Source: Prorocentrum cordatum
Taxonomy: Eukaryota; Sar; Dinophyceae; Prorocentrales; Prorocentraceae
Assembly: GCA_963575745.1 (NCBI GenBank)
Contig: CAUYUJ010000854.1
Coordinates: 36,001-100,000 of the forward strand
Reading direction: 5' to 3'
Length of the DNA stretch: 64,000 nucleotides
In this document: one piece after another, positions 20,415 through 48,832 of the stretch
How positions within the stretch are numbered: position 1 is the stretch's first letter
Layout: every line of letters begins with the position of its first letter
Program-made: the position numbers and the translations under genes
The notes under the pieces: model-generated
The model's input: only the letters and a program-made list of their open reading frames with translations
Told to the model about the DNA's origin: nothing
The model's database searches: none

Positions 20415-20415
20415 C

Positions 20416-20448
<33 letters not shown>

Positions 20449-23120: not shown

Positions 23121-23180
23121 GTACATTGCTTATGGTACGTTTACCATGAGAACCCTTGAGCCAGTGGGGCACTCTTAAGC

Positions 23181-23455: not shown

Positions 23456-23479
23456 CCCAGGGAGGGGGAGATTTCTATA

Positions 23480-23731: not shown

Positions 23732-23771
<40 letters not shown>

Positions 23772-25443: not shown

Positions 25444-25492
<49 letters not shown>

Positions 25493-25560
25493 CATGATGA
25501 TGATGATGATGATGATGGTGATGATGATGGTGATGCTGCTGCTGCTGATGATGAAGAGGA
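23480..25560 (+). repeat. GAG then ~1.9-kb GAT/GCT tract
   Basis: 23480-23625 GAG/GGGG. From about 23650 to 25560 GAT with GCT, GGT and GAC variants. No coding gene is supported. Confidence 0.93.
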
Positions 25561-25624
25561 GGGTGACGAGCGTTCTGGCCGTGCTGGTGGTGGTGGTGGC
25601 TGTGGTGATGGCGATGATGCTGAT

Positions 25625-26502: not shown

Positions 26503-26610
26503 GGCTTCGAGTCGTCGAAGGGCCGCGGCGCTTTCGCGGTGCTTCAAGTGTCCGAGGAGGCCCAGGACTCTCCGTAGGGGTCGGGGGCGCCGTGCGGCCA
26601 CGACGACGGC
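26503..26610. other. Polarity-switch segment between GAG and CTC tracts
   Basis: About 110 nt of GC-rich non-triplet sequence. To the left every purine/pyrimidine triplet tract back to 9.9 kb is purine-rich on +. To the right every tract up to 29.9 kb is pyrimidine-rich on +. Confidence 0.8.
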
Positions 26611-28590: not shown

Positions 28591-28765
28591 CGGACCTGAT
28601 CCTCCTCCACCTCCTCCTGTAACCTCGATCCTCCCCCTCTCCTCCTCCTCGAACCTGGATCCTCTTCCTCATCCTCCTCGAACCTCGTCTCTCCTCCTCC
28701 TCCTCCTCCTCCTCCTCCGCCCCGAAACTCGATCCTCGAACATCGATCCTCGCGCCTCCTCTTTG
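28591..28765 (-). repeat. (CTC)n tract with CTCGAACCTxGATCCT variants
   Basis: CCTCCT runs alternate with CTCGAACCTCGATCCTC phrases. It has the same polarity as the other tracts right of 26.6 kb. No gene is seen from here to the next tract at 29.24 kb. Confidence 0.88.
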
Positions 28766-29239
28766 TCCTTGCCGGCATCCTTGTTTCTCCCCATCCTCAA
28801 CCCTCCTCCGCCCCTCCTCCACCGAACCTCGATCCCCGAACCTCAGGGCGTGATTTACCTCCCCCGCTTTCGCTTCCAGGCAAAACCAAGTCATACCACG
28901 CGCCTCCTCGTCAAGAGGCCTGACCAGTACGGCTGCAATTTAGCGTCGCTTGGTATCTCTTGGAAGCGAGGGTGGTCAAAAGCGAGGTAGGTTTGTTTGC
29001 GCCCTAGAACCCCGATGCTCCTCCTCTCCTGGTTCTCCACAGAATAAGAGTGGCCGGGCGGCCACTGCCGCGCGCAGGGAATGGCCGCCAGCAGGGCCCG
29101 GGAGTGGCAGCCCGGGCCCCCCGTCGCGCGCTGCGCTCGCGGGGGCGCCGACGATGCGCGGGCCTCGAAAGGAATGAGCTCCGCATCGTCCTCGTCCGGC
29201 TCGTCACAGTTCGCCAGCATCAGGTGCAATCACAATCAT

Positions 29240-29555
29240 CCATGACCATCACTATCCTCATCACCACCGCCGTCATCGTCATCGTTCTCTTCATCGTCTC
29301 CGTCACCATCATCCATCCTCATCACAAACATCATATTCGTCAGCATCACCATCATCATCAAGTCATCATTAACACCGTCAACATTGTGATCACCATCATC
29401 ATATTTATCACCATCACCATCTTCATCACCACCATCAATTTCATCATCACCACCATCATCACCACCATCATCATTCTCACAACCATCATCATCATCATCA
29501 TCAGCCGCATCCACATCAGCATCATCATCAGCATCATCATCACCATCACCATTCC

Positions 29556-29602
<47 letters not shown>

Positions 29603-29880
29603 CAATGATCGCCATCACCATCATCATCAGTATCAGCACCATCGCCATCACCATCACCATCATCATCATCATCATCATCATCGTCATCATCGTTACCATC
29701 AGCAGCGTCATCATTATGATCAACATCATCCTCGTGATCATCATCACCATCGCCATCACTCCCACCATCACTCTCATCATCACCACCACCGTCACCGCCC
29801 GTCACCGTCACCATCACACTCTTCACCACCATCTTCACCACCACCGACACCACACCACCATACTCATCATCACCATCATC
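29240..29880 (-). repeat. (ATC)n tract, ~640 bp
   Basis: ATC/ACC triplets on +, the complement of the GAT tracts at 9.9-25.5 kb. This is the end of the polarised triplet-repeat domain. Confidence 0.93.
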
Positions 29881-30883
29881 ACCGCCCTGCCCCACTCCGT
29901 CTCCGCCCTCCTTGACCCGCGCAGGTGGTGGCTGCGGATGCGCAGCCGACTGCAGGCATCGCCATGCAGCATTTGCACTGGGCCCGGATTGCCCCTCCCC
30001 GTTCGCCGTCCCCATCCTCGGGGACTGACGTGGCTGCCGCCACCGCGTGCGCCCCCTGGCGCGCCGGCCGCCCGGGAGCCGAGGAGATGCCAGCACGGGC
30101 CGAGGCGTGCGGATTGGCGACGGGCCCTGCTGCCGTGCAGTCGGCGCGCGCTCCGTCGCCCCGTGGAGCGGCAGTGCCTTCTTGTTCCCGCGGGGGCCTT
30201 TCCCCGATCTGTCGCCCGCGCGCCAGATCGAGATGGCGGAGGAAGCGGGAGGCGGGGAGGAAGCTTTCCTCCCTCTGCCACAAGTGCGCCTCGCTCCATG
30301 ACCTCTCCCTGCCCTCCTCCCTTCCTGCTCCTCGCTCTTCGTTCGTTCTCCTGCCCCCCCAGCCAGTCACTTGGTGCCGATCCACTCTGGATCGAATGAG
30401 CTGGCTTCGAGCTGCGTGGCTCAGGAGCACACAAGCTGCTCGTCTCGACGCCCATCGGTTACCGCGCTTCGTCCCCTCATTCTGTGCCCGAGGTTTCCGA
30501 CGTCTGGAAACTGGCAAGGCGGAGTTTGTTTGCATGGTTCTCTGCCTGCTGGGGCGAGGACGGTCAAACACCAAAGCCAAGATCTGGCAAGACTCAGTTG
30601 TCTGGGAAGGGGTCGGAAGCTCGTGAGATCGCTCCAGAGCGTTCCGAAACGCTCTCGACCGGCCGCGGCGCCTGATGCATCCGTCAGACCCGTCGGCTCT
30701 GAGAGATTCCCATCCCGACTGTGTCTTCTCCCTGCGGTCGTTCTACAGTCAACCATGATAGCAAGGATGGGGCAACTTCCCAAGGCCACCCTTGCATCCT
30801 TGCCCCTTCGGCATTCGGTATCCTTCGGCAGTCTGCTGTGCTCCGCACGGAACACGTCAACATGGCGTTCCAAGCCTCGGATC
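29881..30883. other. Unique spacer
   Basis: About 1 kb of GC-rich DNA without recognisable coding motif. An 8-bp perfect hairpin (AGAGCGTT-CCGA-AACGCTCT, 30636-30655) is the only small structure noted. Confidence 0.45.
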
Positions 30884-33190: not shown

Positions 33191-33976
33191 ACTCTAAAGT
33201 GAGCTGGGTGTTTTGCATGTGAGTGGGAACGAGCGTGCATCCGCGGTTGCTTGGCTCAAAACTGCCGGCCGCCCAGATCTGACTACACCTCAGCGCGAGG
33301 TGTACTTTTTGCCATCGATGCCAAAATTGCTTGAGATGGCTCGCCTCCTACTACTGGGACTATCGTTGCTACGGTACAACATAGCTGGAGCAAGGCTTCG
33401 CCTAAGGCGAAGCTGCTGGTTGGGTCCCCCAACCTTTTTTTTTTTTGTTCTTTCCAACATGTAGCGGAGTTGGCCTCTGGTTGTCAGTTCTAGTTCTACT
33501 CTTCAGCATCCACGGCAGTATCTGGTGGACTACTGACGTGGTGAAATATCAGGGTGCAGTGGCTTTGCGCGGAGGAATGTATATAACTACGCAACATAGC
33601 AAGGCCATTTGCAGTGACACTTCTGCCTACGCGGAGGCCTCTTACTTGCGTCCTACATCCCTGCGCGACTACACTCCTGAAGTCCACCCACCTACTCCAA
33701 GTGGAGTCTTCTTCGAATACATAATGCATGGAAACATGCGATACGACATTGTGCCGCTTCCACCCCCGCGCAGGCTTACGACCACATACCGCAAACCCCA
33801 ACCGACTACATCCGACTACGACCTGCGAGGCCATTGGATTGGTATTCTCATTTTTGGGCTAACATGGGTCGCTATCGGGTGTGCGGTAGGACAAATGCGT
33901 GGCGTACAACACAAGAACGACCGGCCTCCATTGAGACCCGTCCGGTCAAGTACCTTACCGCGAATTCGTCCGCGAG

Positions 33977-34380
33977 GTGTATGCCAAGATCAACGTGACC
34001 ACAAGCAACATGGCGCCCTCCCAACAAGCTGCAGCTTTGCAGCGAGGCTTGGGGGGCCTCGCACGGCCCATAGCCATGAGAGTTCCCCCAGCAGTTATAA
34101 ATGTCGGCGTGAACATAGGTGGCCGCCATGCCGATGGCGCCACCTACCACCTACATCATGTTCCTTTTTAAGTGCGAAGTTTGAGAACCTACAAGAGGAA
34201 CGCCAACTCAACTCTGGTACAGCTCTGATTGGCTTCCGAGTCCATGCGGGGGAACGGACCGTCCAGACTTTGGCACGCTTCGAGATAGCCCGCTATGAAG
34301 ATGAAGCGGCAGCCTTTAACATCCCCAACTTCCGAATTCTAACAGTTATTCTATTCGGGGCCCTTGGAGCGGGGACATAG
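33977..34380 (+). pseudogene. Copia-like element, N-terminal (Gag-like) fragment
   Basis: One plus frame from 33977 to 34171 (NMAPSQQAAALQRGLGGLAR, VGVNIGGRHADGA) passes by a frame change into a frame ending at 34380 (KFENLQEERQLNSG, GERTVQTLARFEIARYEDE, NIPNFRILTVILF). The second part is predicted helical and Gag-like in position. No Gag signature residue can be pointed to. The assignment rests on its place upstream of the CCHC knuckle. A further open frame begins at 33445 with a hydrophobic N-terminus, but its relation to the element is unclear. Confidence 0.45.
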
Positions 34381-34664
34381 CGTGCACAGCAACTCCTGCA
34401 GCCACTAAACCACCGCATACCGAGGGGCCAGAAACAGTTCGACTCTCTACTGGAACGCGCGAGGTCATCTGCTTACTTTGCTGAGAGAATCCCTGGCAAT
34501 ATTGGTGGTCATTTATCAGTCACAGTCACCGAACCGAGACCTTCCACGTTGAGGCAAACGCAGGGCAACTTGCTAATGACGTCTGGAATGACGATCCGCA
34601 ATCAACAGATACCATTACACTACTGGCTCAGAATGGTGGTTCGGCCTCGGGGTCGCAAGACTGC

Positions 34665-34913
34665 TTGGCCAGGTTTCGGGGGCCGCCCGACGTGGTGGCC
34701 CCCGCGCAAGCCGCAGCCCTAATGGGCTCAGCGGGGCAACCTGCTGTGTCCGACTTCGGCCCCGGTGCCGGCACCGACGCGTCTTCGGATGACGAGACTA
34801 CTGCCCTTGACGACTCCGATGTGCCTACGTACCTCACGGAAGAACAACGGGCGCAAGTGTTATTCTTAGGATGCCAGAAACATAAACGCAGTAATGAAGA
34901 AGCCAGTTCGTAA
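34665..34913 (+). pseudogene. Copia-like element, Gag fragment with acidic stretch
   Basis: An 82-codon frame with an acidic segment (GTDASSDDETTALDDSD) and a basic end (KHKRSN), followed in the next frame by a Lys/Arg/Gly-rich region (KGKGRGKGK-like, about 34930-34980) that would suit RNA binding. It carries the first mini-hairpin of the 14-nt family (34731-34744), read here as Ala-Gly-Gln-Pro-Ala. Confidence 0.45.
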
Positions 34914-35101
34914 AGCACGGCGCATCGTCCGACGGGCGCTCGAAGGAAAAGGCAAGGGTCGAGGCAAGGGCAAGGTAAGTGGCGGCGATTGCATGGCAGA
35001 GGCATGCTAGCATTCCTAGCATCCCTTACCGGGCCACAATATGAAGAGATATTCCTAGGTGCAGGCAGGTAGGCATACATCAGGAAAAGGTAAGGGACGT
35101 T

Positions 35102-35290
35102 GTGAGCCCGAAGGATGCCATCGGTAAAACTATGGAGTGTGACATATGCCATAGCGCGCATCACTTTCGCCGCGAATGCCCTCAGGGCGATGGGGGAGGC
35201 AGAGGTCCGTTGATGCATCTGGCTCAAACTGACTCGGATACACAGAATGGTGACTGGGGTTCCTTTTGGCCGACCCTGCCGATAGCTTAG
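35102..35290 (+). pseudogene. Copia-like element, CCHC zinc knuckle
   Basis: Residues 13-26 of this frame (MECDICHSAHHFRRECP) fit C-x2-C-x4-H-x4-C exactly, with the four ligands between 35138 and 35179. This knuckle is the nucleic-acid-binding hallmark of retroelement Gag proteins. The frame ends at 35290, and the following 125-codon frame overlaps it, implying a frame change. It lies after the basic Gag region, as expected. Confidence 0.7.
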
Positions 35291-35797
35291 TTGCAGTCGT
35301 TAACTTCATGGTTGCCGGATACTTGAGTGCTAGTATGTCTCTCGAGAATTATGCCGGCGGGCTGTTCGAGGAGGCATTCGCTGGCCGCAACGATATCGAT
35401 CTGGCAGACTGGCTGGGCATATCCATCGAGGGGCAACCTGCCGATCTTGCGTTTGTCGAGAGTTTCTACATGCCCGCCGAAGGAGATGACGAACTGGCGG
35501 GGGCACCCGCGGATTCAGATGCCACTGTTCCTGCGACAGAGGGGGACATGCAGTTGATGCTGCATCTTCGGGTTATTGGCAATCCGACAAACATGAAATT
35601 GAGTGACGATGACCCTTCGTGGGGGAAACCTGCGAGATGTTAGCGATCTCTCTGAGCGCATTCAGCGTGAGCTCGGCCGCGACGAAGGATTTCAACGTGC
35701 ATTCGCAGCTTCGGACCGCTCCGTGAGTCGCGGGGGGCGATCGGCAAGCCGCCAGTCCTGGAGACGCAAGTATCGCGCCGACGACGAGGGCGAATAA
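35266..35797 (+). pseudogene. Copia-like element, acidic region after the knuckle
   Basis: Two overlapping plus frames (35266-35643 and 35603-35797). The first is acidic (ENYAGGLFEEAFAGRNDIDL, SFYMPAEGDDELAGAPAD). The second is Ser/Arg-rich (RSVSRGGRSASRQSWRRKYR). The overlap points to a single-base indel near 35620, where another degenerate mini-hairpin-like sequence (GGGGGAAACCTGCG) sits. No family domain is recognised. From 35798 to 36190 the DNA is GC-rich with no readable piece. Confidence 0.4.
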
Positions 35798-36214
35798 TGG
35801 GGAGATGCCGCGCGTCCGGCACGTCGCGGTCGGGCCCGCAGTGGCCCCCCCGACCGTGCGCGCGCGCTCCAGCGGCGCTCGCTCTAGCGGCTCTCAGCGC
35901 CCTCATCCTCCGCATGCGAGGAAGCCAAGGACCCCATCCATGGATGGTCATTAGACCTGGTGCCCCCCCGAGGAGGGGGCGAAAGCGGGGGCGCCCGCCT
36001 CCGGGGGAGGGGCCTCGCGAAGAATATCCAGAACACGAAACAAACAGCGCCTCGTTAGCTATTCGGACGCTGGGTTGGCTCGCCAGCACATAGACCCATA
36101 TACAATGCAACAGTGGTTTGGCAAGGCTTGGGCGGAGCACCACATTCGTCGCAGGTATTCCTCGCAAGGTTGATTGACATTTAAAAGGCAAGGTGTCACG
36201 AGCAGAAGAAGCCC

Positions 36215-36814
36215 GTGCCAAGCGCGACCGCAAGGGCCATCATCGGAGAACGGACACTTTACCGAGGCGTTGTTTGCACATGCTTCGAGCATGCCGAGCG
36301 CGGGCTCGGCTGCCCCATGAGAAGCCCATCAAGGGGCCCCAACTTCCGCGAGACACCGCGAGTCTGGTCTCACGGTGATGGCCGGGGTTATTGTACCGAT
36401 CCAAATGCAACGCCGTGCAACGAGCAGTTGACGGATGACGACTACGACCAAGCTACAGCCCAAGAAATATCCCAGTCTTTAAGGACATGGCATCATCTTT
36501 CACCTGTTCATTACTTAGAGATTTCCATCCGTTATTATAATGCGGGAGAACTTGCTTCGCCCAAACCAGAAGACGACCAGCAATGATCTGATGGAGCTGA
36601 AGATATGGCCGAAGCGGTAGACCCCGCGGCAGAAGCTCCTGCAGGGTACGCCTCGGGTTACTCCGACGCCCTCTCCACTGTCACGGACGTCACTTACGAT
36701 GTGGACATCCCCATTGACCCCTGGGTGCATCGCCGCGAAAGACATGGATTTTTACCGAGAATGATGAGTCGTCTATCGTGCTGGATCTGTAGGTTGGGTA
36801 AAGGCCAGAATTAA
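36215..36814 (+). pseudogene. Copia-like element, unassigned fragments
   Basis: Two plus-strand frames (36215-36586, 123 codons; 36605-36814, 69 codons). The first includes QATAQEISQSLRTWHHLSPV and ISIRYYNAGE. The second includes DVTYDVDIPIDPWVHRRERH. They are placed in the element because they lie between recognised parts on the same strand. I do not recognise a domain. Other readings, including unrelated captured sequence, are possible. Confidence 0.3.
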
Positions 36815-37004
36815 ACGAAGGCTCAGCTCTGGCAAACATGACCTGACCGCTAGGGGAAAAAGGCTACTATCGGAAAGATGGCACTCATAAAGCCTGATGG
36901 TGAGGACCTTAACCCTGGCAGAGGGCCCGTGCGATATGGACCATAGATACCCTCGGGGGCAACGCCGAAAGCACCTCCTCCCAAGCTGAAGACATATCCA
37001 CCTA

Positions 37005-37830
37005 ATGATATTTCCCCATCTTCGGATTCGTCGCGTCAGTCTAAGTCACTCGGACCTGATCAGCTCGAGGAAAAGCCCAGACTATCCCAATCCTGGATAT
37101 CGCAGGCAACAGCGACCTGCGGGGCCACCTGCTGATCGACGTCGACCCAGAGGACTAGCAGTGGCCGCCGCAGCAGCTGCATTTCAAGGCGCCAGCACTC
37201 CTACTCCGAAGGGCCCCGGGCCACGCCGCGGCCCTACACCTGGCCGGGCGCGCAGGGCTGGCTGGACGCCGACGCTGGAGGGATCATCAAGGGATGCTTC
37301 TTCATCGCGGCGTGGTGCCGATAAGAGGCCATTGGAAACAAAGGCATCAGGGGCAGCGCCCAAAGACAAGAAGTGCGAGTACTACAACATCAATGAGAGG
37401 AAACGTCAGGATTTCGACATCAGTACCCCGCCGCGGACCCCTTCGGACGCCCAGGAGGTCCGCAGGCGCTGCCTCGTCATCGGCAGGTGCCCGCGCACCT
37501 GCAGCATCGGCAGCAAATCAGAGTTATGCGGGGCAACCTGCTCTTACGTTGGAAATGCCCGTTGAATGCCGACACTACTGGGCCTGTATGCGCTCCACTA
37601 GGCGTCTGCAGATCAACCCAGCATATCGCCCCCGTAATGATGACGGGTCTGATCGATGCATCGCGGTGGAATGCGATGTCCAGGATACCGCCGTCGTTGC
37701 CGATGAGGGCGCTCGCGCGCGCAAGGTTGCCCTTAATATCCTGCGTGGGCGCCCTGCGCTCGCGTATCTGTTCGAGAAGACCGGCTTGATGGGAATCCTT
37801 AAAGCAGACAGGGTTGCTGGTGACCTATGA
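37005..37830 (+). pseudogene. Copia-like element, disordered basic/Pro-rich linker fragments
   Basis: Two overlapping frames (37005-37565 and 37294-37830), the first Pro/Arg/Ala-rich (RRPRGLAVAAAAAAFQGAST), the second continuing with NQSYAGQPALTLEMPVECRH and VALNILRGRPALAYLFEKTG. Two 14-nt mini-hairpins (37119, 37528) and one longer perfect hairpin (37483-37502) fall here. The overlap indicates a frame change. No enzymatic motif is seen. Confidence 0.35.
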
Positions 37831-38261
37831 GGAATAGCGCTGCTGCTCACAATGGCTTACCACTGCTACTCGTCACGAACCGTTTCGCAACAACTACCTC
37901 TCTGACAGGCTTCTGAGAACAGTACCGTCATTCGACGTATTCGATGGACGCGCGGAGCTCTCAGAGCTGCTTAACAAGTGGCCACCTGAGGGATGTGATC
38001 GTTGCCGCCCCGAACACCTGCAGACTCTCCGGCGTCACCCCAGCAGCTGCCATAGGGCATATCAGGCATTGGCTGTGCTGAACTTGATTGGCATGGTCGT
38101 CAACGCTGGGATGCAGAAGAACAGGCTCCATATCAAGAGGTGCAAGTTCACGACTGAGATGTACGAGACATATTTCATACGCGCAAGTAATGGACACATC
38201 AGTCCTGGCATGCAATGCCCTGCGTCACTGTGTATGAGGACAACTGGTTTGACTATTCCAG

Positions 38262-39165
38262 GTGCACCTCGTTAATTCCCTAATGGGAAAATATCCCGAA
38301 TGTACTTCGCATAGAGCTGTCATGCCGTGCCGACGACATCATCAAGGGAAAAGGCAGACCGTTTGTTCATGTTTGCTCATATCTACCGGGTGGCAACAGG
38401 CTCCAGTCCGGCCTGCGCGTCGACTCCGGAAAATTGTTTATGGTTTGTATGAAATTCTTGCGATTTGATAATATTGCTATTTGGCGCTCGGCAGATGATA
38501 TTATTATGTTGGCAGGCCGGAACGGCAGAATTCCTCCGCCACGCATCGTCCAGCTTGTAGGCATTCTGCCCAACGATAGGTGCAGGTATAACCGCGCGGG
38601 ACATGTGTGGGTCAATCCCTTGTACCTGTGGGACAACGATCAGACATATCCGAGAAGTGGTCTTTGCATCGACGATGTGTGCGAATTTCAAAATGATGCA
38701 TCATCGTTGAAAGATTGGTTTATTCCAAATCCCTCCTAGAATTTGAAGTATCCCGACCCGACGCCTATGCAGGAGGTCGATTCCTGTGCGGTATTTATGC
38801 TGCAAGAAGGGTACCAAGCGGGGGCACCTGCAGGGGGATCTGAGGGATCATGGATTCAGGTCCAGAGCGCGGACGTGACTGGTGTGACATCGAGTGGAAT
38901 TTCTCCCACCGACATGCTGTGCGCCAACGATCTGTGGCGTGTCCAGACGCAGCAGTTGCCAGAGCCCGGAGGGCAACGTGCGTCGTTAGCACATATGAGT
39001 CGGGCCGCAACTCCATTTAGGGACTCCTCAGAGTGCTGGGAGCACCAACAGCCTAGAGACAAGGCTCCAAATCATTCGGATGGACCCGCAGCTGCACCAG
39101 GCTTTGCAGGCGACATTTCCGTTCGCATCGCCGCGTCCACATTCGGGGCAACCTGCTTCCCCTGA
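38262..39165 (+). pseudogene. Copia-like element, unassigned fragments before the RING/protease region
   Basis: Three plus frames in series: 38262-38468, 38434-38739 (LRFDNIAIWRSADDIIMLAG, RYNRAGHVWVNPLYLWDNDQ) and 38743-39165 (acidic/Ser-rich with a YQAGAPAGG mini-hairpin translation). The middle piece looks like genuine protein rather than repeat translation, but I do not recognise its fold. 37831-38261 shows no readable piece. Confidence 0.35.
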
Positions 39166-40513
39166 CCACCACGCTGCACGGAGGAACGAGAGTTTGTTTG
39201 GTCAGCAAGAGTGGATGTACCGGCAGATGCGCGAAGCCGCGCAGAGCATGCGCAGGGGCGGCATCGACGTCCCCTGCGATAGCTGGACGCCGCCTTGGGA
39301 GTATGTCCTGGACCCGAATCCATCACCGGACAACCCCAATAGGTACGGATACGTGCCAGCATTTTCCAGTCACCCGACATACGATCCGACAGCTGCATGG
39401 CGCCCTACAGCACCACCGATGGACTCCCCATTTTATCCTGACTACCATGCCCAGGTGACGGATAACCCTTGCGTGGGAACGCAGCCGGAGAGTCCGCATG
39501 CACGGGCGACAGCCGACGATTTCTATCAGTCTCAGTTGACGCGCGGCTCTGGCATTACGTCAGGTGTGCCGGGCCGGATTCCTCAGTATGGATATGTGGC
39601 TACCCTGATGGACTCAGATGTGACTCAACAGGCTCCCGGCCTGGTAGCGCCCTCGTCCATGGGGGAGTTGCGCCCGGAGATGCTGGCCGTTCACGAGGTG
39701 CAACAGGCCAACATCTCAATGCAATTGGCCCGCCAGCGTCGCAATCGCGAGCGTCGGGCGAACAGGATGCTGGGTCGCGCGGGGCAACCTGCTGCTCCAA
39801 TCACAGCAGGGGCGCCTGCATTTAACCTGGCAGCACTTGCAGCCATGCAGCCACCGTCGGCCCCACCGATCCAGCATGAGGTTGGTGAAACTACCCTGGA
39901 GCGCCAGACGCGTATCGGGCCATCGGCAACGCCGCTGGTCATCAGCGACGGTGACTTTAAACGAGTGTGCAGCGCCTTGTCCACTTCACGCATCGCGACA
40001 AGGTCTGGGGGCTTCAGTGTGGTCACATATTCCATGCGCAGTTCTGGGGCCGAGTTGCGCACGCTCATGCGGACAGACAGCTGGCTGGCACTATGGGCGG
40101 TGCTGGAACTGAGGCACCCTGCGCTATTTGCAAGGGCGTTGGTCGAATCACAGCTGAGTTTCAGCATGCCCTTGCTGGAGATCAGGATGCAGCAAATCGC
40201 CATGGGGAAAAACTCCGAGCGGCTAGCGAACTCAGGGGCCTTCGCGAAGAGCTTAACCGCATCTGCACCACGCCCGCACATGCATGACAAGTATCCTACG
40301 GCCTGGACTTTCGAGAAGAACCCCATTACAGAGGAGGCGGCTTGCGGATGCATGAACGTCCTCGCGTCTCTGACAAGGGACGATTGGGCGTTGGAGCAAA
40401 GGCGCCGCAAGGGTATGCGTGGTACGACGCTGTCTGAGGTGCCAGGAATAACCGGAAAACGCCATGAACTGGCCCTGGCCGCGAAAAGTGGGCCATCGTG
40501 GATGGAATGCTGA
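39080..40513 (+). pseudogene. Copia-like element, 477-codon open frame upstream of protease
   Basis: The longest uninterrupted frame of the element. The N-terminal third is Pro/Tyr-rich (NPNRYGYVPAFSSHPTYDPT). The middle carries Arg-rich QQANISMQLARQRRNRERRA and two mini-hairpins read as AGQPA (39779) and AGAPA (39806). The C-terminal part (KYPTAWTFEKNPITEEA, WALEQRRRKG) leads directly into the protease frame. Between about 39965 and 40285 this frame appears to be out of register, because the neighbouring frame reads as a RING-like domain there. The frame stayed open by chance and cannot encode the original protein as it stands. Confidence 0.5.
39967..40287 (+). pseudogene. Copia-like element, RING-like finger in shifted frame
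   Basis: Frame +1 relative to the 477-codon frame reads LVHFTHRDKVWGLQCGHIFH, AQFWGRVAHAH, EAPCAICKGVGRI and ELRGLREELNRICTTP. C-x-H-x2-F-H followed by C-x2-C is the second half of a RING-H2 pattern. The Cys expected after FHAQ is Phe here, and the first Cys pair survives only partly, in the other frame (FKRVCSAL). The finger is therefore broken. Its register fits if two compensating indels occurred near 39965 and 40280. RING domains are ubiquitin ligases. A role inside a retroelement polyprotein is not established here. Confidence 0.5.
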
Positions 40514-41853
40514 CGATTCTTCTGGACATCGGCAGCAACGTCGACAGGATTGGTCTAAAAACGGTACAGACATTTGAACGGGTATCCCGCTCCCATGGCC
40601 ACGACATCAAGAAGCTGAACCTGACGAAGAGGCTCTGCGTGTCGGGGGTGGGACCTGGTGCCGCTGCATGCGACAAGTCCTTGCGCTGCAAAATTGCGCG
40701 CAAAGAAAAAGGAGATCCGGCGGGGGCGCCTGCTGTGCCGAAACATGAGATCTACTCAGCTAACGTGGTTGAGGGTTCAGGGGCAAATCCCCCTGCTATC
40801 TTGGGTCTGAGGAGTATGTCTAACATGGGGGCTATCCAAATCCTGGAGCAGGGGCGCGAGAAGATGGCCATCCCCGGCTCTGATATATACAAGCTCCTCC
40901 TTGGGAAGGGTGCCGGAGCATATGATTGGATGAAAACGCTTTCTGGGCACCTGGCGCTCAAGGTCGACGAGTGCGGGGCCGCAACTGAGGACAGAAAGTC
41001 GATGTCGTTTACTATTGCGGCCAACCCTCACTGCGAGGATGCCCCGCTGCTCGTCGCAGAGGCAGCTGGCGCAGAGGCAGCTGCGGGGCAACCTGATTTG
41101 AGTAGCGCGGGGGCACCTGCTACGTGCGATGCTCATGCATGTATGATGACACAGGATACCAAGGGCGTCAGCTTCTCCATTAACGAGGAGACGCTTGCTT
41201 TCACGATCCAGTCTTTGGCCAATAACACTTTGAAAACCTGGCGTCGTAGGAATACGTCCTTCGGGGCTATCCCCGCGCCGGCCGACCAGGACTTCGCCGT
41301 GCGAAACTTGAAGGCGAAGGTTTATCAGGCCATCTACGAGGAGGGCAATAAGTGGATGCCGCCCGACGCGAAGGCAGGGGGACCCGCGGAAGGGGATGAT
41401 GCCGCTGAGAAGTTTGATATGTTTACTTCGAGCAGCGGCTCTGCAGCGCAGCATGGCGCGGGCATTTGGGCGCCCCCAACGCTTGAAAATGAGTGGCGGG
41501 GCCAGGCGCGCGCCGCGGCCACCTGTGCTTGCTCCGACAGGCCGAACACTCAGGTTCTGTCATCAGCGCGGGGAAACCTGCATTCCTTTTCTCAGGCGCC
41601 GGCTGTGCGCGCCAGGGACTTTGGCAAGCCCGGCTGCGCGGCTGCCAAGGGCAGCAGTGGGCCCGGCTGTGTGGCCGCAGCAGCAAATGAACGCTCATCG
41701 CATCATCATCATTCTCGTGCACTTGTCATAGAGGACATGTGGTCAGCTTGCGCTGAACTCCGAGCTCGTGGTTACATGTGTGACCGCATCACAGTATTTG
41801 GGTGCTCTACTCTCGAGGGATTATCCATTGCTGCGGGTGGCAACGCCCGCTGA
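40498..41853 (+). pseudogene. Copia-like element, aspartic protease and following spacer
   Basis: A 451-codon frame starts with MLTILLDIGSNVDRIGL. D10-I-G-S matches the retroelement protease active site D-T/S-G-S/A with Ile in the second position. Residues 100-104 (A-ILGL) match the hydrophobic-hydrophobic-Gly motif before the conserved helix (RSMSNMGA). These enzymes cleave the polyprotein. After about residue 170 the protein is Ala/Ser-rich, with five mini-hairpins (40720, 41083, 41107, 41374, 41568), four read in this frame as AG(x)P. The first codons overlap the end of the preceding frame (40498-40513), so a Gag-to-Pro frame change is needed. The end passes into another frame at about 41770. 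Confidence 0.7.
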
Positions 41854-42184
41854 CTGGCACGTTAGGTTACCTGGAAAGCGGGCAGGGCCACATTATCAAC
41901 GCGTCCAAAATTTGATGACTGAGGCTCGGGCTCTACGTATGTTCATTGTACTCGTGGGGCCGCAATGTTATATCTGGAAACAGGGTCCCATGCGAGATGC
42001 CGTTGAAAATCTCGACTTGCAGGTCATGCGTATGCGACGCTGCCGTTCCGGTCTGAAATACGACCATCCAAGTAAGTTGCCTAGCGGATCAGATCTGCAA
42101 GTGGCAACTACCTACACGCGCATCCCAACCAACTTGTGGAGATGCACGTGTCAGACTGCAGGGACACCTGCCCAACTTGCTTAG
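41768..42184 (+). pseudogene. Copia-like element, conserved-looking unassigned region
   Basis: Reads DWHVRLPGKRAGPHYQRVQN, ARALRMFIVLVGPQCYIWKQ and NLDLQVMRMRRCRSGLKYDH. It continues the preceding protease/spacer frame after a frame change near 41800. It ends in CQTAGTPAQLA, where AGTPA is a mini-hairpin (42158). It looks like real protein sequence but I do not recognise the domain. Confidence 0.4.
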
Positions 42185-42414
42185 CATGAATTGGACTGGC
42201 ATGGCCAAGGCGCTCAGCAGGCATAATGGCGCAACAAAGCATTGGCTATCATGACCGCAAGATTGATTGATCAGATTGATTTACACAAGACCAAGAGAAA
42301 CAACGCGAGTGCCGTAACCTCAGCATTCACACGCGAGTAGTTCAAGGAGCTCGTACTTACGTTCAGTCTCCGAAGAAGGGCCCTAAATGGGACCATGTTG
42401 TAAGAAGGGTAACG

Positions 42415-42699
42415 ATGAACCTGGGCGACAATCAGATGATGCATGACGTCGAGATCCAGGGCCAGCCTATTGAGTGCACTTACAATGCGCTGTTACCGAA
42501 TGGTATAACAAACATTCGTACTCGGTTGTACTGGGGGCCGCCAGAAACGGCTCTCATCGGACAGGGGGACCCGCGACCACGCCCAAGGTGGGTTGCGTTC
42601 GTCGGCGGCGATCGCCCCCCTCCCCCTTCGATTGAGCGTGGCCGCTTGCCCCCCTCTATACCCGAATTCCCGACGCTAAGTTCAGTTGATATTGAGTAG
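42415..42699 (+). pseudogene. Copia-like element, unassigned fragment
   Basis: A 94-codon frame (MHDVEIQGQPIECTYNALLP, YWGPPETALIG, RWVAFVGGDRPPPPSI). A mini-hairpin variant (ACAGGGGGACCCGC, 42561) lies in it. Downstream to about 42850 a Lys-rich frame (IKQKAKQTADKAAGIKPRKI) follows after a stop. No domain is recognised. Confidence 0.35.
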
Positions 42700-42849
42700 C
42701 AGACAGCACTACTGACCGATGCCCGAATCAAGCAAAAAGCAAAACAGACAGCCGACAAAGCAGCGGGCATCAAGCCACGCAAGATAACCAAGGTAGTCGA
42801 AGAAGGCGGCGACTACTGCGGGAATGACTTCGAATCATGAGGAAACACC

Positions 42850-45230
42850 GTAAGACACTTTAACATAAGTTGTTGCGCCCTCCTCGTAAAGGCCGCGCAT
42901 TCTCTCGTACGGCGATGTAGATTTCGCAGTTTCGGGGGTGAATAATTTTCAAATAATGGGCGTCGTGGGCGGCGCGAGGAAGGTTGAAGTGCGCCCTCTA
43001 CTGGGCGCGGTGCAGACTGAGTGGAAGACGCTGCGGTTTCTGGAGAGCTCTCTGTGAAACAAGCGCGGGCGCTGAACAAATCGCGACGTAGGAGGCCGAG
43101 GTAGGAGGCCATGCAAACGCGCGCGGGGGTCATAACGCGGTCGATCGCATTTCTGCCCCTCGGCCATCGGAGAACTAAACTTCGGGAAGAGGTCAAGTCG
43201 ATCCTCCTCCCCCTGCCCCCCCCCCTCCTGTTGCCCCCCCTCCCAACGAGGCCGGTCGGCCTTGTGGGCCTCGCGAGGCCGGTGGGCCCCATGAGCCCTA
43301 CGAGGTCGACGAGCCTTGCGAGCAGTTCAGGCTGCGCTCTGCGCGGGCCTTAGGCTGCTTGAAGCCCGTGTGAGAGGCCGACGGGCCCTGTCTATCCCTC
43401 GGTCGATCGCGCGCAGGAGCTCCGTGACCCCTAGGGGCCCGCTGAGCTGCATGGGCATTGTGACCCCATGATCCTTCTGACGGTGACCCCTGCGAGCCCT
43501 GCAGTCCCCGCTAGGGCGTCTCAGCCCTGGCGGGCGCAATGCGGCCGATGGGCCTTGTCAGCCTTCTGGGGCCGATGGCCCCTATGAGCCCAGTAGGCCG
43601 ACAGGTCCTCAGAGCCCGATGACACCGATAAGCCTGATGAGCCCGATTGGCCGATTGGCCCTCTGAGCCCCATAAAGCCTGGCCCCGTCGCGAGGCCCAT
43701 GCGGCATGGGCAGCGCGTCCTGGGAGGCCGATGGGCCATCTTAATCCTACGAGGCCTCTTGGTCGAGTGAACGCAAGAAGGCCGACTGGCCCTGTGGGCC
43801 CTGTGAGGCCTTGCTCATCGCGACGCTCACGCCGCCTTCGCACGTGCCCATATGGGACCAATGGGCCCAATTGGAACCTATGAAAATCGATGAAGGGGCT
43901 TTTAATGGGCTTTTAAAGCGCCGCTGGATGAGCACCATGGTGAGCCTCAGGGAAAGACCCTGGAGGAGCTCCTGGAGGAGCTGCTGGTGGAACCTTTGGA
44001 TGAGCCTCTGGACGGGCCTCTGGAAAGCTTTTAAAGAGTTTTTGGAGAGTCCCTGGAATAATTCAGAGGATAACAGAGAACACTTGAGGGGAGCCACGGG
44101 GGCAGCTCCTGTGGGAGCCTGCGAACGAGGCCCTGGGCGAACCGCTGTGGGAGCCCTTGGAGGGCCCTACGGGCGACGCGGTGGCCTTTGATTGCGATGG
44201 GGGGCCGGCCGCAAGCGCGCGCCTTTGGAAAAGCACCTGGAGGTCTGGGGGGGGCCCTCTGGAGCAGACTCTGGAGAGCCCCTGGGGGGGCCTCAGGGGT
44301 GCTGCTGGGGAATTTATGGCGGAACTCTTGGACGAGTCTCTGGAAGGGGCGTCCTGGGGAGTTTCTGGAAGGGCCTCTGGAGGAACCTCTGCAAGAGCCT
44401 GCGTATGAGCACCCATGGGCAGCTTCTGGAAGAGCATCTCCTGAGGCATGTGACAGGACCCCTGGAGGCGCCTCTGGTAGAGCCTCTGGTGGAGCCTCTG
44501 GAGGAGTTCCCGGGCGATTTCCAAGAGAGCCTTGGGAAGGCTTCAAGAGAGCGCATCGCTTTCCTGCTTCCCCCCAAGCGTGCCGTCAGTTTATTGCGGT
44601 AGGGGGTGCCCCTTCGGGGGGTGCTCATTTGTCAACTCAGCCGCCCTCTGCTCTGCCTCATTCCGCGTGCCCACTCCCTCCCTCCATCCTCGCCCCCCCC
44701 TCTCCCTTGTCCAGGCCCCCCCCCTTTCCCGCCCCCCCACCCCCCTCTGCCCCCCCCCCCCCCCCCCCCCTTCGCCCGTGATGCCCCCCCCCTCCTCCGC
44801 GGCGGCGGCGTCTGTCCAGGGGGCGAGGGCGGCTGCGTTGAAGATTAAAAGCGCGCGCGACTCTCATTTGCACAGGCCCCGCGCGCAATGGCAGCGGGGC
44901 GCCGTCGCCGCCAGCCGCAAAGGACTACGACGCCGAAGGGGATCGCGCGCCGAGCCCGCTGCGCATCGCGCAGGGCACAAGGTAAGTCCTAGGAGTCCGC
45001 AGCACGCGACTGGGCACTGTGCGCGAACATCTTCTGCGCGCCCTCACGAGATGCCAAGGGGCGCGTCTAGCGGGCGCAGCCTGGCGGCAACTCGCGGCCC
45101 CTACCCGCCCGGATAACATCGGCGCAATCTATGCTGCGCGCAACGCAACACCAGGTGCGACGCAAGCAGTGGGCGACCCCAGACAACCGCCCCGCCCAAG
45201 GGTGCGGTGCGATGGCGGGAAGACCTTTAA
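42850..45230. other. GC-rich repetitive block inside the copia-like element
   Basis: About 2.4 kb with composition unlike its flanks. 43237-43870 is a degenerate AGGCCGATGGGCC-type repeat, which translates as collagen-like Gly-Pro-x on the minus strand. 43930-44540 repeats CCTCTGGAGGAGCCT phrases. 44650-44800 is almost pure C on +. None of the 14-nt mini-hairpins were seen in it. I infer an insertion or local expansion, but no terminal repeats were found. No gene is supported. Confidence 0.45.
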
Positions 45231-45412
45231 ACGTTATGTTTACAGTTTTTCTTTTTTCTTACCAGAGGTCTCGGATGTAGTGCGTAGCACCGACGGCCCC
45301 CTTGGCTCCGACACGGAAAGCGATGCTGAAGAGTAAACCCTCATCACATTATTTGCGGGGCTACTTGCTGAATCCTACGCGCACGCACCCCCCATAATCC
45401 CAACGTGTTGCT

Positions 45413-46269
45413 GTGGGCGACGCAAGGTTGACATGTTGGAATTGTGGAGGAAGTGGGTGCGTATTGCAGCTAGCATTCAGCCGAGGTTTGCCTTCCGGGG
45501 GAAACTTAGACAAACGCTCGTACGCTGACCTTGGAGACGAGGATGTCCAGGATGCAGTGATGCACGACCTAGACGTGCGCTTCTTCAAGGTTGTCATACT
45601 GCAACCCAACTGCAGAAATATTGGAATACCTTCATATTTCAGCTTCCAAGTCAACTTCGGTACTTGGCATGAACACCACAAAGAAGATCTTCCACATTTC
45701 AAGTTCTGTGGCAAGGTTGCCATATAATGACATTCGACGGTTTTACTCACGAGAGCAACCAGCGGGTACTTGGGTACATCAGATACCACCATGGACCACA
45801 TTGGCCAAATGCAAGGGCACTTGCATGGTGCATATGGTCCAGTGTACTACCAGTTTACGTGATTCGCATGGAGTATTTTCATGCGAAAACTGACCGATAT
45901 CATGGCCAACCACCGGTTTGACCTGCACTTCTTGAACGATGACGATGCGCTGGTCATCATCAACATGCGTTGGTATGTGACCAAGAACTGCCCATGGCTG
46001 CACAGCATTCTTCAACAATGCAGTCTCTTCTCGTCGACGCAGTTCAGGTCGCGCACGATCTGTTCCAGGTAAACCGTGATCCCTTGCATGGTTACTCTTA
46101 CTCCTCCACCGTGCTAGTCACCAGCGTGAGGGGACATGTTTTGGAGGATCTTAGTATCCCTCGACAACCCGACGGGTCGATCACGAGACCGCTTTCGGGA
46201 GGGCTAGGGTGTCTTGCATGCGCGGATAATGTTTGCGCGCGCCCTCCTTTACATGGCAGAACCCCATGA
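45413..46269 (+). pseudogene. Copia-like element, fragments upstream of the integrase
   Basis: Short overlapping plus frames (45413-45727, 45591-45893, 45881-46072, 45970-46269) with readable pieces such as LTCWNCGGSGCVLQLAFSRG, FKVVILQPNCRNIGIPSYFS and HHGPHWPNARALAWCIWSSV. Each frame hands over to the next by apparent indels. The first contains C-x2-C but no complete finger. They are placed by position and strand. Confidence 0.35.
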
Positions 46270-46478
46270 ATTGCAGGTGAACTGATAAGGAAGACTATCA
46301 TTGGGAATGTCCGAGCTGTAGGAAGAACTACGGCCAGAACGAGCCTGGACATGTACGGGCACCTGGCAAATTCAAGTTTGCCAAATCTTGGAAGCTGCCC
46401 GACAATCACGGACAGGTACCGCGAGCTCCTGCCGAACCAGCAACGCCACCACCCGAGGCACGAGCCGCGCCACCACTT

Positions 46479-46988
46479 GTGTGGCTACGAGCACCAAGAC
46501 TCGGCTCTAGAGCCGGGGGTGCCAGCAGCCACCGCATTACAGTAGGCAGACATGCCGCTGAACTTGCTGCAGGGCAACCTGCCTCGAGAGGAGCTGGGAG
46601 TTCGGGTGGCCGCATCCGGCTGCCGCAGGTCAGAGTCAGACGTGGCCGACAGCAAGGAGGATATCCACCTCCACCGCCACCTGCGGGTAGCCCTGCTGCA
46701 CGATCGCGACTTACAAATTGGTTCAGGTTCGACGTACAAATCAGTCTACACAAGTTACGAAGCCTTGACCCAAGCGTGGTTACACGCGAGCTGCGGAAGC
46801 TACGCTTGCGTTGGTTCCATGCGAAAGAGCCTAATACGAGACTCAGATTAACCAAGATCGGTCTTGACAGTGTCAGACTTAACCTGATCAAAGGTGTCTG
46901 CGACACGTGTCGGGGGTGCAGGGCTCGGGACAAGCCTGGGCATATTGTTATGCCATCTATTGCGCTGTCTGGCAAGTTAACGAAGTAG
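46479..46988 (+). pseudogene. Copia-like element, GAG-pre-integrase-like region
   Basis: A 169-codon frame ending VVTRELRKLRLRWFHAKEPN, LDSVRLNLIKGVCDTCRGCR, ARDKPGHIVMPSIALSG. The region directly before copia integrase cores normally contains an H-x-R-L-G-H/C-x2-C zinc-binding unit. Here C-D-T-C-R-G-C is visible and the His part is degraded. Two mini-hairpins fall in it and are read as AGQPA (46569) and AGSPA (46683). Confidence 0.5.
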
Positions 46989-47506
46989 TTGAATGTGACC
47001 GTATGTTCTACACACAAGAACAACATTATGATACTTCATATCGTCGGTCGTTTGCATTCGCTATGCTACTAGGATGGATATACCAGACAAGACGATGAGC
47101 AGTATCCTCGTTGCGTACTATCAGTGCTGGATGCAGTTTGGACCTGCAAGGGTACTCTACTCTGATCGAGAGGGTGCCCTTATCAACGACACTGCGAATA
47201 ACAGTCCTTAAGGCAAAGGGCGCTGAAGTAAGGATACGTGCGCGTGGACAACGCGCTACGACGATCGATGCCAGAAGTGGCATACTGCGCCATCTACTTC
47301 ATGTCATGGAAGCTGAACTCAACAGGTTAGACATACCTCTGGTATTCACACGACTACTGCATGGTGCCTTGTTTGCCGCCAGCGCGTTCACCCTCTATAG
47401 CGAGGTGTCTCCATGCGACGCCCTGCTTGGACGGCAATTGGCAATGCTCCCTGAGTTGCCTATCCTGGATCGAACGGCCGACGGAAACGTCGGATCATTC
47501 GCGTGA
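46907..47506 (+). pseudogene. Copia-like element, integrase core
   Basis: Landmarks of a DDE integrase occur in order but in different frames: EVVECDRMFYTQE (first Asp at 46997), LYSDREGALIND (second Asp at 47164) and RATTIDARSGILRHLLH (acidic residue at 47267). The second and third are 103 nt apart, close to the canonical 35-residue D-to-E spacing, but the third is Asp rather than Glu. Downstream the frame 47111-47506 continues with AELNRLDIPLVFTRLLHGAL and SPCDALLGRQLAMLPELP, typical of copia integrase C-terminal parts. Integrase inserts the cDNA. This copy is dead. Confidence 0.65.
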
Positions 47507-47509
47507 GCA

Positions 47510-48395
47510 GATTATACGCAAGGTATGCATTGAAGGTATGACGCAGGTTACTGCAGCTGCCAAGACCAATCGTGCATTACGCACTAAGACAACTACCACC
47601 AGTCAGCATTGCGATGGTGAAGGAGATTTTGTGGATTACCATCGTCCCACAACCACGCAGGACGACGGGGGAGGCTGGAATGGCCCTTTCCCGGTCGTAA
47701 GAAACCGCCCCTAACGCGGGGTCAAATCATCATTCGAATGGGAAACCGCGACGTTCAGGTACAATGCGGCGATGCACGACATGCGCTCTATATTGAAATG
47801 TTGATAGCCAGAGAGACCGGCTCCGACCACACTGCGCTACGGACAGTGACGTTCGTGGCCAGTTTACCTGCGGGGAGACCTGCTATCACATTTGGCTATG
47901 TCCCGACCGAGAAGGGGGCGCTTCAGATGACAAGTGCAAGCCGACTATATCCTTAGGTGCGTCTGGCTTTACAGCATCAGAAACTTCTTCCGCATTGAGA
48001 ACGTAGTTTCGGTTGGGTTAGCCAGGGGTATCCACGAGCTACCTCCGGTGGCTTACGCTGGCAGTTGCGCATTGGCCTACTAAGACAGCGGTGTGAATCC
48101 AAGATTTTGCTTTTATGAAGCAGAAGGCACCGCCCTTATCATTCGCGATGTAACTGGATCAGCACATTCAAGCATCATCCAGTGCCTGGAGCCCACCAAA
48201 CTTCAAGCAGGTTTCGACCAGGAGATGACAAAGTTTGAGAAATTGGCTGATGCAACGACGCCGGACAGACCGCAAGAGAAGCCCCAGACGCCGAACCACC
48301 ACGGGAGGATGGGCGGCCCCCACGGTGCACGAGGAATCGGAGGCCGACCTCGAGGCACACATTATGGATGTGTGCTATGCAGAACTACAGGATGA
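47510..48395 (+). pseudogene. Copia-like element, integrase C-terminal to pre-RT fragments
   Basis: Plus-frame pieces IEGMTQVTAAAKTNRALRTK with DFVDYHRPTTTQDDGGGWNG (to 47714), MGNRDVQVQCGDARHALYIE with VASLPAGRPAITFGYVPTEK (47738-47956) and PRFCFYEAEGTALIIRDVTG with CLEPTKLQAGFDQEMTKFEK (48093-48395). The D-x-V-x-Y/W and WxGPFxV phrases resemble the chromo-like GKGY region after copia integrases. The mini-hairpin at 47870 is read as AGRPA. Confidence 0.45.
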
Positions 48396-48424
48396 AAAGG
48401 TGACTACTGGAGGCAACTCCACGA

Positions 48425-48832
48425 GTGAATCTTTGCACAGCACCCGCACATATGATTCCAGACAACAGCGCGCTGATCACTGTAGCCGAAGAACAGCGGG
48501 GACACCTCCCTAAGTGGGGTCACCCACGCGACTCCCGCATCGAGGAGGCGTCTCGTGTCCTACTGCGCTCTACGGTCGAAGATTGCAGTTGCGCGTTGGC
48601 TTCAGACGACAATGGATAACATGTAGAACTCTGCATTGCGGCCGAAGTGTCAAAACATAGTCCTGTCCGAACAACGGCGCAGGATATTAGATGCCGACCG
48701 CGCGACCACCATGCGAGTATATGTTGCCGCCGCTGCATGGCGAGCGGAGGTCGTCAAGGAAGACGACCTCCTCGCGAAGGCTGACATCCAGGCGAATCCC
48801 GAAAAAGTATCGAAAGCCACATGCACTGATCT
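48425..48832 (+). pseudogene. Copia-like element, RT N-terminal extension
   Basis: Frames 48425-48619 (HMIPDNSALITVAEEQRGHL) and 48636 onward (CQNIVLSEQRRRILDADRAT, AWRAEVVKEDDLLAKADIQA, VSKATCTDLK) lead up to the TIR-element insertion at 48833. The reading resumes past it with DFKTWFDKKKL-like sequence at about 49951. A further mini-hairpin (48496-48509) reads AGTPP in the neighbouring frame. Confidence 0.5.

Follow-up and report, generated by a model that had tools for sequence, protein, structure and literature searches.

We analyzed 64,000 nucleotides (nt) of Prorocentrum cordatum DNA (positions 36001-100000 of contig C854, hereafter the window), in which a stretch that is, by homology, a decayed copy of a giant Ty1/Copia-type long terminal repeat (LTR) element carries many dispersed 14-nt hairpins. 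These 14-mers are almost certainly hairpins of the sense RNA that are under selection as structures. A preliminary description of the window had reported GCRGG-GNNA-CCYGC palindromes throughout a copia-like element and had offered three options for them: a selected RNA structure, a proliferating micro-element or an excision footprint. Covariation, strand specificity and constraint at synonymous sites support the first option; the other two are not supported. The genome-wide counts given below cover a genome of 4.13 Gb, and the published account of the P. cordatum CCMP1329 assembly gives 4.15 Gb and a GC content of 59.7% (PMC10666404).

The window copy belongs to a family, F1, of which we compared four copies: the window copy and copies a, b and c on contig C2. 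These three are 74-84% identical to the window copy over the main blocks (67% in one block of copy b), and in a joint alignment copies a, c and b are 84%, 83% and 77% identical to it. Self-comparison of the window copy revealed no LTRs, and it has no Pfam match. It was assigned via DNA homology to the F1 family and protein homology to F2a, a near-intact relative at C1:2045383-2061821. F2a has 293-nt LTRs that are 98.6% identical, a match to the RVT_2 reverse transcriptase model (PF07727; 2.5e-11, and 4.4e-9 in L033, a locus of a third family, F3), and a gag-like open reading frame (ORF) with a stretch of basic residues and a weak match to a zinc knuckle (zf-CCHC 0.0022, below the cut-off). A 2306-amino-acid middle ORF (L009:2895-9815) has a Tpt1/KptA RNA 2'-phosphotransferase domain (9e-15) and a RING finger. 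By eye we also found a protease-like DIGS motif and a putative RNase H motif; scanning the ORFs gave no match to an integrase model. Because F2a has LTRs, RVT_2 and a gag-like ORF, the earlier copia-like label holds, though the window copy alone is without a Pfam match. The Tpt1 and RING combination is common to F2a and a metagenomic relative, P0012, and none of the papers listed by a literature search dealt with Tpt1 in retroelements.

Number, architecture and strand of the hairpins

The pattern GCRGGNNNNCCYGC has 17 matches in the window, where chance predicts 0.66 and the highest count in 100 shuffles is 3. Sixteen of the 17 matches lie inside 34731..48509: 15 are on the sense strand with a loop that begins with G, and one is antisense (46683). 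The loop ends in A in 12 of the 15 sense matches and is GGCG in the other 3. By eye, 7 of the 15 loops are GNRA, which agrees with the earlier statement that several are; the rest are GGCA, GCCA, GACA or GGCG. When near-copies with at least 11 of 12 consensus positions are admitted, there are 22 plus-strand sites at 34560-48496, and three further ones elsewhere in the window (7155, 27170 and 31766). The dispersed mini-hairpins are real and had been understated; the figure of at least 19 copies is too high for the exact sense pattern (15) and is reached only with near-copies (22). The units of the window copy are listed in the table with the other mapped features.

Features of the element and hairpin units of the window copy. 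Units are GCRGGNNNNCCYGC matches, near-copies (11/12 positions) and hairpins with other stems, compared in the joint F1 alignment; positions are those of the window unless a contig is named.
Feature	Position	Strand	Remarks
Decayed giant Ty1/Copia-type LTR element (by homology), family F1	33463..48818	+	limits are those of detected similarity: gag similarity begins at the 5' limit, DNA alignment with three other copies reaches the 3' limit
Hairpin GCATG-GAAA-CATGC	33726..33739	+	other stem, same architecture
Hairpin GCAGG-GCAA-CTTGC	34560..34573	+	copies a and c: GCAGGGCAACCTGC
Hairpin GCGGG-GCAA-CCTGC	34731..34744	+	GCRGGNNNNCCYGC match, reads AGQPA
Decayed unit GAGGGGCAACCTGC	35428..35441	+	11/12 positions; copy a: GCGGGGCGACCTGC
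Hairpin GCGGG-GGCA-CCCGC	35497..35510	+	GCRGGNNNNCCYGC match, reads AGAPA
Unit GCGGG-GGCG-CCCGC	35985..35998	+	G-final loop; F1 alignment
Hairpin GCGGG-GCCA-CCTGC	37119..37132	+	intact in 4/4 F1 copies
Hairpin GCGGG-GCAA-CCTGC	37528..37541	+	GCRGGNNNNCCYGC match; F1 alignment
Hairpin GCGGG-GGCA-CCTGC	38818..38831	+	GCRGGNNNNCCYGC match; F1 alignment; site apparently common to F2 and metagenomic P0012 (by-eye match on SDGSW context)
Decayed unit TCGGGGCAACCTGC	39143..39156	+	11/12 positions; intact in b and c
Hairpin GCGGG-GCAA-CCTGC	39779..39792	+	intact in 4/4 F1 copies
Unit GCAGG-GGCG-CCTGC	39806..39819	+	G-final loop
Unit GCGGG-GGCG-CCTGC	40720..40733	+	intact in 4/4 F1 copies
Decayed unit GCGGGGCAACCTGA	41083..41096	+	11/12 positions; intact in a and b
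Hairpin GCGGG-GGCA-CCTGC	41107..41120	+	GCRGGNNNNCCYGC match; F1 alignment
Unit GCAGG-GGGA-CCCGC	41374..41387	+	A.C mismatch at pair 3; copy b GCAGG..CCTGC
Hairpin GCGGG-GAAA-CCTGC	41568..41581	+	GCRGGNNNNCCYGC match; F1 alignment
Hairpin GCAGG-GACA-CCTGC	42158..42171	+	GCRGGNNNNCCYGC match; F1 alignment
Inserted block	42835..45262	.	missing from copies a, b and c; without a sense GNNA hairpin
Hairpin GCGGG-GCTA-CTTGC	45355..45368	+	F1 alignment
Hairpin GCAAG-GGCA-CTTGC	45811..45824	+	A-T at pairs 3 and 4
Hairpin GCAGG-GCAA-CCTGC	46569..46582	+	intact in 4/4 F1 copies (b: GCGGG)
Hairpin GCGTG-GTTA-CACGC	46774..46787	+	pair 4 is T-A; same architecture in F1c and L035
Hairpin GCGGG-GAGA-CCTGC in pol	47870..47883	+	homologous F2 GCGGG..CCCGC, F3 GCAGG..CCTGC
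Decayed unit GCGGGGACACCTCC	48496..48509	+	11/12 positions; intact in a and c
Hairpin GTGGG-GTCA-CCCAC	48514..48527	+	F1 alignment
F2b duplicated segments with hairpins (L017)	C2:1702410-1702483, 1707753-1707838		30-nt and 24-nt repeats

As the preliminary description had said, hairpins are absent from the 42.85-45.2 kb block, with no sense GNNA hairpin in 42851-45200. This block is 2.4 kb long and rich in short repeats, with a poly-C run. Elsewhere in the window, 9976-29881 contains degenerate arrays of trinucleotides that extend over many kilobases (GAT, AGG, AGT, GAG and TCC; for example at 19717-22321 and 23650-25554).

We observed that GCRGG-GNNA-CCYGC is one sub-type of a wider class of 5-bp hairpins with a GNNA loop, almost all of them on the sense strand. 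Across seven element loci their density is 1.8-3.3 per kb, and the sense and antisense counts are 55/5 in F2a, 26/0, 29/1 and 26/1 in the F3 loci L033, L036 and L037, 19/4 in L035, 23/3 in copy a of F1 (F1a) and 14/1 in L030. In these same seven loci G..A is the sole class of 4-nt loop with a sense excess of at least 7. The divergent relative L029 has 11/2 and the fragment locus L034 has 3/2; the latter was considered as a hairpin-free relative and rejected, and it is no counterexample because its similarity to the pol of the element is limited to about 270 nt. No sense excess of GNNA hairpins was found in L028, L031 or L032. Control loci (10 of 15 short search-hit loci, one of which, L004, lies in L029) gave 15 sense and 19 antisense GNNA hairpins in 30 kb. 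Other loop classes show asymmetries of their own: antisense excesses in F2a (3-nt T..G loops 15 vs 0, 6-nt T..G 10 vs 2, 4-nt C..C 8 vs 1), L033 (3-nt T..G 7 vs 0, 6-nt G..C 8 vs 1), L035 (3-nt C..G 8 vs 1) and L030 (4-nt C..C 12 vs 2), and a sense excess of 6-nt C..C loops in L034 (8 vs 1).

The architecture is kept while stems and loops vary. In F2a, 47 of 57 GC-NNN-GNNA-NNN-GC strings pair at all three inner positions, compared with 16 of 116 strings whose loops have other ends, and stems outside the sub-type include GCGGA-GTCA-TCCGC, GCGGC-GCCA-GCYGC and GCGTG-GCCA-CACGC. F3 was found via a search motif that we take to be that of RNase H (860 + 897 genome matches, 1,757 in all, some of them fragments; none for the control), and its many stems include GCTCG/CGAGC, GCGAG/CTCGC, GCACG/CGTGC, GCGCG/CGCGC and GCCTG/CAGGC. 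The loops resemble GNRA tetraloops in having G first and A last, and GAAA dominates in F3 and GCAA in F1a; many loops, chiefly GCCA and GTCA in F2a, are unlike GNRA. Units are alike within a family (GCRGGGCAACCTGC in F1, GCGGGGNCACCCGC in F2). In F3 the stem is followed in almost every case by C (19/21 in L033, 22/23 in L036), a base that is perhaps part of the recognized element; F2a has no base bias at this position, but its stems are mostly preceded by A or T. Outward of the fifth pair, pairing is at or below background. No Rfam family matched above its gathering score in L033, L009 or L013.

The genome-wide search that the preliminary description had proposed gave 29,557 + 32,230 = 61,787 matches to GCRGGGNNACCYGC and 3,235 + 3,336 = 6,571 to the reversed control; the corresponding numbers for GCNNGGAAACNNGC are 18,674 + 19,450 and 3,675 + 3,744. 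Among the first 100 GCNNGGAAACNNGC places, 48 of the 49 in clusters are paired, as are 19 of the 51 outside them, several of which lie in F1 and F2 elements. The three clusters, on C2 (including L033), C15 and C26, are probably related because the C15 and C26 stems look like those of F3. The count of the looser GCGGNGNCANCCGC is just 1.8-fold over its control, so most matches to loose patterns outside elements are background.

Pairing and coding context

At sense-strand sites anchored by GCNNGGNNACNNGC, both free pairs are formed in 32/32 cases in F2a, 22/24 in L033, 23/24 in L036, 20/21 in L037, 11/11 in L035, 14/15 in F1a, 9/11 in L030 and 0/1 in L034; on the antisense strand, 0/3 are paired over all loci. 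When 50 distinct 14-mers drawn from F3, L035, F2a and F1a are considered, 46 have both free pairs, compared with a mean of 16.3 and a maximum of 25 in 2,000 permutations of the arms. In the same 14-mers, 98% of cells are paired, double-changed cells number 45 vs 10.4 in shuffled data, and the covariation score is 0.478 vs 0.104, a value reached by 0 of 500 shuffles; the rows are not all independent because they come from four families and include related copies. Over six loci the sense strand has 23 G.U and 5 A.C combinations, an excess that would be expected of a sense RNA that folds. Compensatory changes are also seen at homologous sites. Three are in pol: GCGGG..CCCGC in F2, GCAGG..CCTGC in F3 and GCGGG..CCTGC in F1; GCAAG..CTTGC in F2, GCGGG..CCTGC in F1a and CCCGC in F1c; and GCGTG-GCCA-CACGC in F2 and GCGAG-GAAA-CTCGC in F3. 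A fourth, at the 3' end, has GCGAG-GCTA-CTCGC in F2 and GCTCG-GAAA-CGAGC in F3. Some sites in the aligned pol regions are restricted to one family.

Within ORFs the 14-mer is usually read as A-G-x-P-A. In the canonical units of the F2a middle ORF, the first alanine codon is GCG in 19/19 and the glycine codon is GGG in 19/19, compared with 28/160 glycine codons elsewhere in this ORF; the codon of the second alanine, at the fifth position, whose third base lies just outside the stem, is random (GCA 7, GCT 6, GCC 3, GCG 3). All three reading phases are occupied, with RGHLP, SGATR, RGYPQRGHL, QGHLPERGHPP and EETR among the other readings. Hairpins are also present in the 3' untranslated region: one F2a unit begins on the last base of the pol stop codon (L013:6426), and F3 has two or three units past this codon.

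Wobble positions were compared among the F1 copies, with the site set by one copy and the difference counted between two others. In pairs with copy b, third bases differ in 13/76 cases at codon 1 (stem), 8/76 at codon 2 (loop G) and 7/76 at codon 4 (stem), compared with 30/76 for the base after the stem, 36/77 for the preceding wobble and a mean of 0.32 for flanking third positions. Pairs without copy b give a weaker contrast (0/81, 8/81 and 10/81 vs 14/82 after the stem, with flanks at 0.18). We also shuffled synonymous codons 300 times per ORF, some of the ORFs overlapping slightly. GNNA hairpins number 29 in the F2a middle ORF vs 2.47 ± 1.45 in the shuffles, 8 vs 0.64 in gag and 7 vs 0.47 in pol; non-GNNA hairpins show no excess in these ORFs (19 vs 27, 8 vs 7.6 and 7 vs 6.0). 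The four L033 ORFs give 5 vs 1.25, 7 vs 0.66, 3 vs 0.58 and, for pol, 5 vs 0.43. The shuffle mean is exceeded in 7/7 ORFs and the shuffle maximum in 6, being equalled in L033 4351-6303 (3 vs 3). The preliminary description had allowed that these might be ordinary conserved coding sequence, should copies share their sites and density be that of shuffled sequence. The sites are mostly shared, but this explanation fails because density is far above that of shuffled and synonymous-codon-shuffled sequence. Taken at the level of sequence, these comparisons support the view that selection covers the pairing, the G...A loop, the GC clamp and the sense strand beyond the needs of the encoded peptide; the G-C pair that closes the loop is likewise fixed in these hairpins.

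Origin of the units and relatives in other sources

Among the F1 copies, 29 of 32 sites are without a large gap in every covering copy, and the gaps at the remaining 3 are longer deletions or missing stretches. Aligning copies in search of sites with and without the unit, as had been suggested, did not reveal a precise 14/15-nt empty site, either in the four F1 copies or in the comparison of F2a with F2b. An apparent 15-nt absence in copy a (alignment column 6302) was discarded since it proved to be a difference of 56 nt in the raw sequence. The pol unit LPAGKPAMTFGY can be aligned gaplessly with LAAGKPPITFGY and similar sequences in metagenomic relatives, and in the F3 reverse transcriptase a hairpin turns the residues EKER into EETR with length unchanged; such units were made by substitution. 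Relative to F2a, two segments are added in F2b, one of 30 nt that contains a hairpin and one of 48 nt consisting of two 24-nt repeats with one unit per repeat; judged from these repeats, local segment duplication is a route of local hairpin multiplication. Three cases count against pure substitution: one F2a unit lies opposite a 21-nt gap in F2b; one F3 unit in a poorly aligned linker is opposite a gap, 12 nt long in F2 and 15-16 nt long in F1 and L035; and an AGNPA of P0012 is opposite a gap in F2a. Insertion or deletion may therefore have occurred at some sites, including the F3 linker unit. Since several units align without gaps with relatives lacking them, substitution plus local duplication explains the units better than 15-nt inserts, footprints or a peptide motif. 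A splice-scar or introner origin was considered as well; clean inserts were not found. Rickettsia palindromic elements, and the GC clusters and palindromic repeats of organelles, are inserted repeats. They resemble the present units in being short palindromes repeated in and around genes; the present units differ in that several align gaplessly with relatives lacking them and in forming a class that keeps structure, not sequence.

Searches of other sources returned eleven pol relatives (P0001-P0011) and one of the middle ORF (P0012). With 85% identity, P0002 may be a close or same-species copy, and it is the only pol relative with AGxPA. P0012 has eight AGxPA and, by eye, two RGNL peptides, which suggests, judged from protein alone, that it carries the same hairpins. 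P0003, P0004, P0006 and P0007 have HGNV, HGDV or RGNV close to the linker that carries QGHLPERGHPPG in P. cordatum (by eye); GCACG-GNNA-CGTGC, in which only the pairs of the hairpin are changed, could encode HGNV. A viral-contig scan with P0003 returned no DNA of the relatives. In a separate match, a P. cordatum protein with the UniRef name protein-tyrosine-phosphatase (P0013) is 97% identical over 9% of the searched part of a retroelement ORF, and is probably a gene model taking in retroelement sequence.

Possible function of the hairpins

We propose that hairpins of the form 5'-GC-NN-G[GNNA]C-N'N'-GC-3', repeated along a giant Ty1/Copia transcript, would all be bound by a single protein, for which the Gag of the element is the likeliest candidate. 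With its basic tract and weakly matching zinc knuckle, Gag would be a natural choice, as it must pick about 16 kb of its own RNA; many weak sites could jointly let it select, condense and package this RNA, as in single-stranded RNA viruses. New sites seem to come mostly from point substitutions at places where the protein can accept them, with duplication of local 24-30-nt segments as a further source. We assign a probability of roughly 0.55 to this reading of the hairpins as dispersed RNA recognition elements for Gag and packaging. The stronger version, in which an array of dozens of GNNA hairpins forms an "identity code" overlaid on the proteins, displaces even conserved residues (EKER, now EETR, in the F3 reverse transcriptase), is read by Gag to select and condense the giant RNA and may exist in related elements of other species, we regard as slightly less likely than not.

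There are precedents in viruses. The coat protein of satellite tobacco necrosis virus binds short stem-loops with an AXXA loop, about 30 per genome, which promotes assembly (PMC3593212). The likeness lies in many short, degenerate stem-loops with a common loop motif over coding RNA, here read from genomic DNA copies. Dispersed packaging stem-loops are likewise described in outline for MS2, enterovirus-E and human parechovirus. Unlike these single-stranded RNA viruses, the present case concerns the roughly 16-kb RNA of an LTR retrotransposon, a GNNA loop, a GC-clamped 5-bp stem with covarying pairs 3-4, and a presumed reader. The packaging and dimerization domain at the 5' end of Ty1, with its kissing hairpins and pseudoknot, is similar in that Ty1 too is Copia-type and has hairpins in its genomic RNA, which are linked to packaging (PMC5454406). 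In Ty1 these signals are located within a few hundred nucleotides of the start, whereas the P. cordatum hairpins span gag to the 3' untranslated region. No published description of these hairpins was found in the literature that the searches listed, at the level of titles and the starts of abstracts, and the word "hairpin" does not occur in the part available of a review of dinoflagellate genomics (PMC11453091).

Several observations weigh against the proposal. Packaging determinants of Ty1 are reported at its 5' end (PMC5454406) and Ty1 Gag is described as binding RNA with low specificity (PMC8396678). Local folding gives the stems only moderate probabilities, 0.51 sense vs 0.38 antisense in F2a (27 units) and 0.43 vs 0.24 in F1a (16 units). 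In F1 there is no special constraint on the last loop base, which differs in 26/76 cases in pairs with copy b. In L029, 4 of 8 anchored sites are paired, as read from the site list. All 19 canonical units in the F2a middle ORF share one phase, that of AGxPA, so the peptide matters too. Similarity of units within a family could come in part from copying between sites. As for L029 itself (C1:1217001-1225000), it is a divergent, decayed relative with blocks of 28-44% amino acid identity, and it has GNNA hairpins of its own with many broken pairs.

The main competitor is that the sense-RNA hairpins serve another task, such as nuclear export, stability, translation or ribosome queuing, control of reverse transcription, or evasion or capture of a host RNA-binding protein. 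All the structural evidence fits this equally, the 5' region also contains hairpins, as does the sequence at or past the stop codon of pol, and the encoded Tpt1-like RNA phosphotransferase and RING finger mean that RNA processing could be involved; we consider it possible, though we would bet against it, as a single export or stability signal usually needs fewer than dozens of copies. The remaining explanations are all far less probable. A palindromic protein-binding site in DNA, or a hairpin of single-stranded DNA during complementary DNA synthesis or integration, is conceivable in that short GNNA-type loops can be stable in DNA too; the strand bias and the excess of G.T over A.C (23 vs 5) favor sense-strand RNA, and the unit is not a full double-strand palindrome because G6 and A9 are not complementary, leaving this explanation little credence.

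We think it equally improbable that a 14/15-nt micro-element or an excision footprint has spread. It would account for the likeness of units within F1 and F2, the 30-nt and 48-nt segments of F2b, and the units facing gaps in F2b, at the F3 linker and in the P0012 comparison, but precise empty sites were not found in F1 or between F2a and F2b, the pol and reverse transcriptase units are gapless against relatives without them, and the units have nearly one orientation and stems that vary with pairing kept. Selection on a repeated peptide, such as an AGxPA linker or protease site with the DNA motif as by-product, draws on AGxPA being the commonest reading, in mostly linker-like sequence, and on its uniform phase in F2a; it is for practical purposes ruled out by the wobble bases (the fixed GCG and GGG codons, with the fifth codon mixed) and by the other phases and untranslated copies. 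In a GC-rich genome many short GC hairpins are expected, yet chance or base composition has a negligible probability given the 17 matches for 0.66 expected, the synonymous shuffles, the antisense control and the lack of enrichment of non-GNNA loops.

The concept of dispersed packaging signals has been influential in the study of RNA viruses, and weak motifs make it difficult to prove. The P. cordatum motif is short, strong, strand-specific and covarying, and with 61,787 matches to the sub-type and 1,757 to the RNase H motif the rules that govern its loop, stem and position are open to statistical analysis. If the proposal that Gag reads the hairpins is true, LTR retrotransposons can use distributed RNA recognition. 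The hairpins are also a clear example of protein sequence yielding to the demands of RNA structure.

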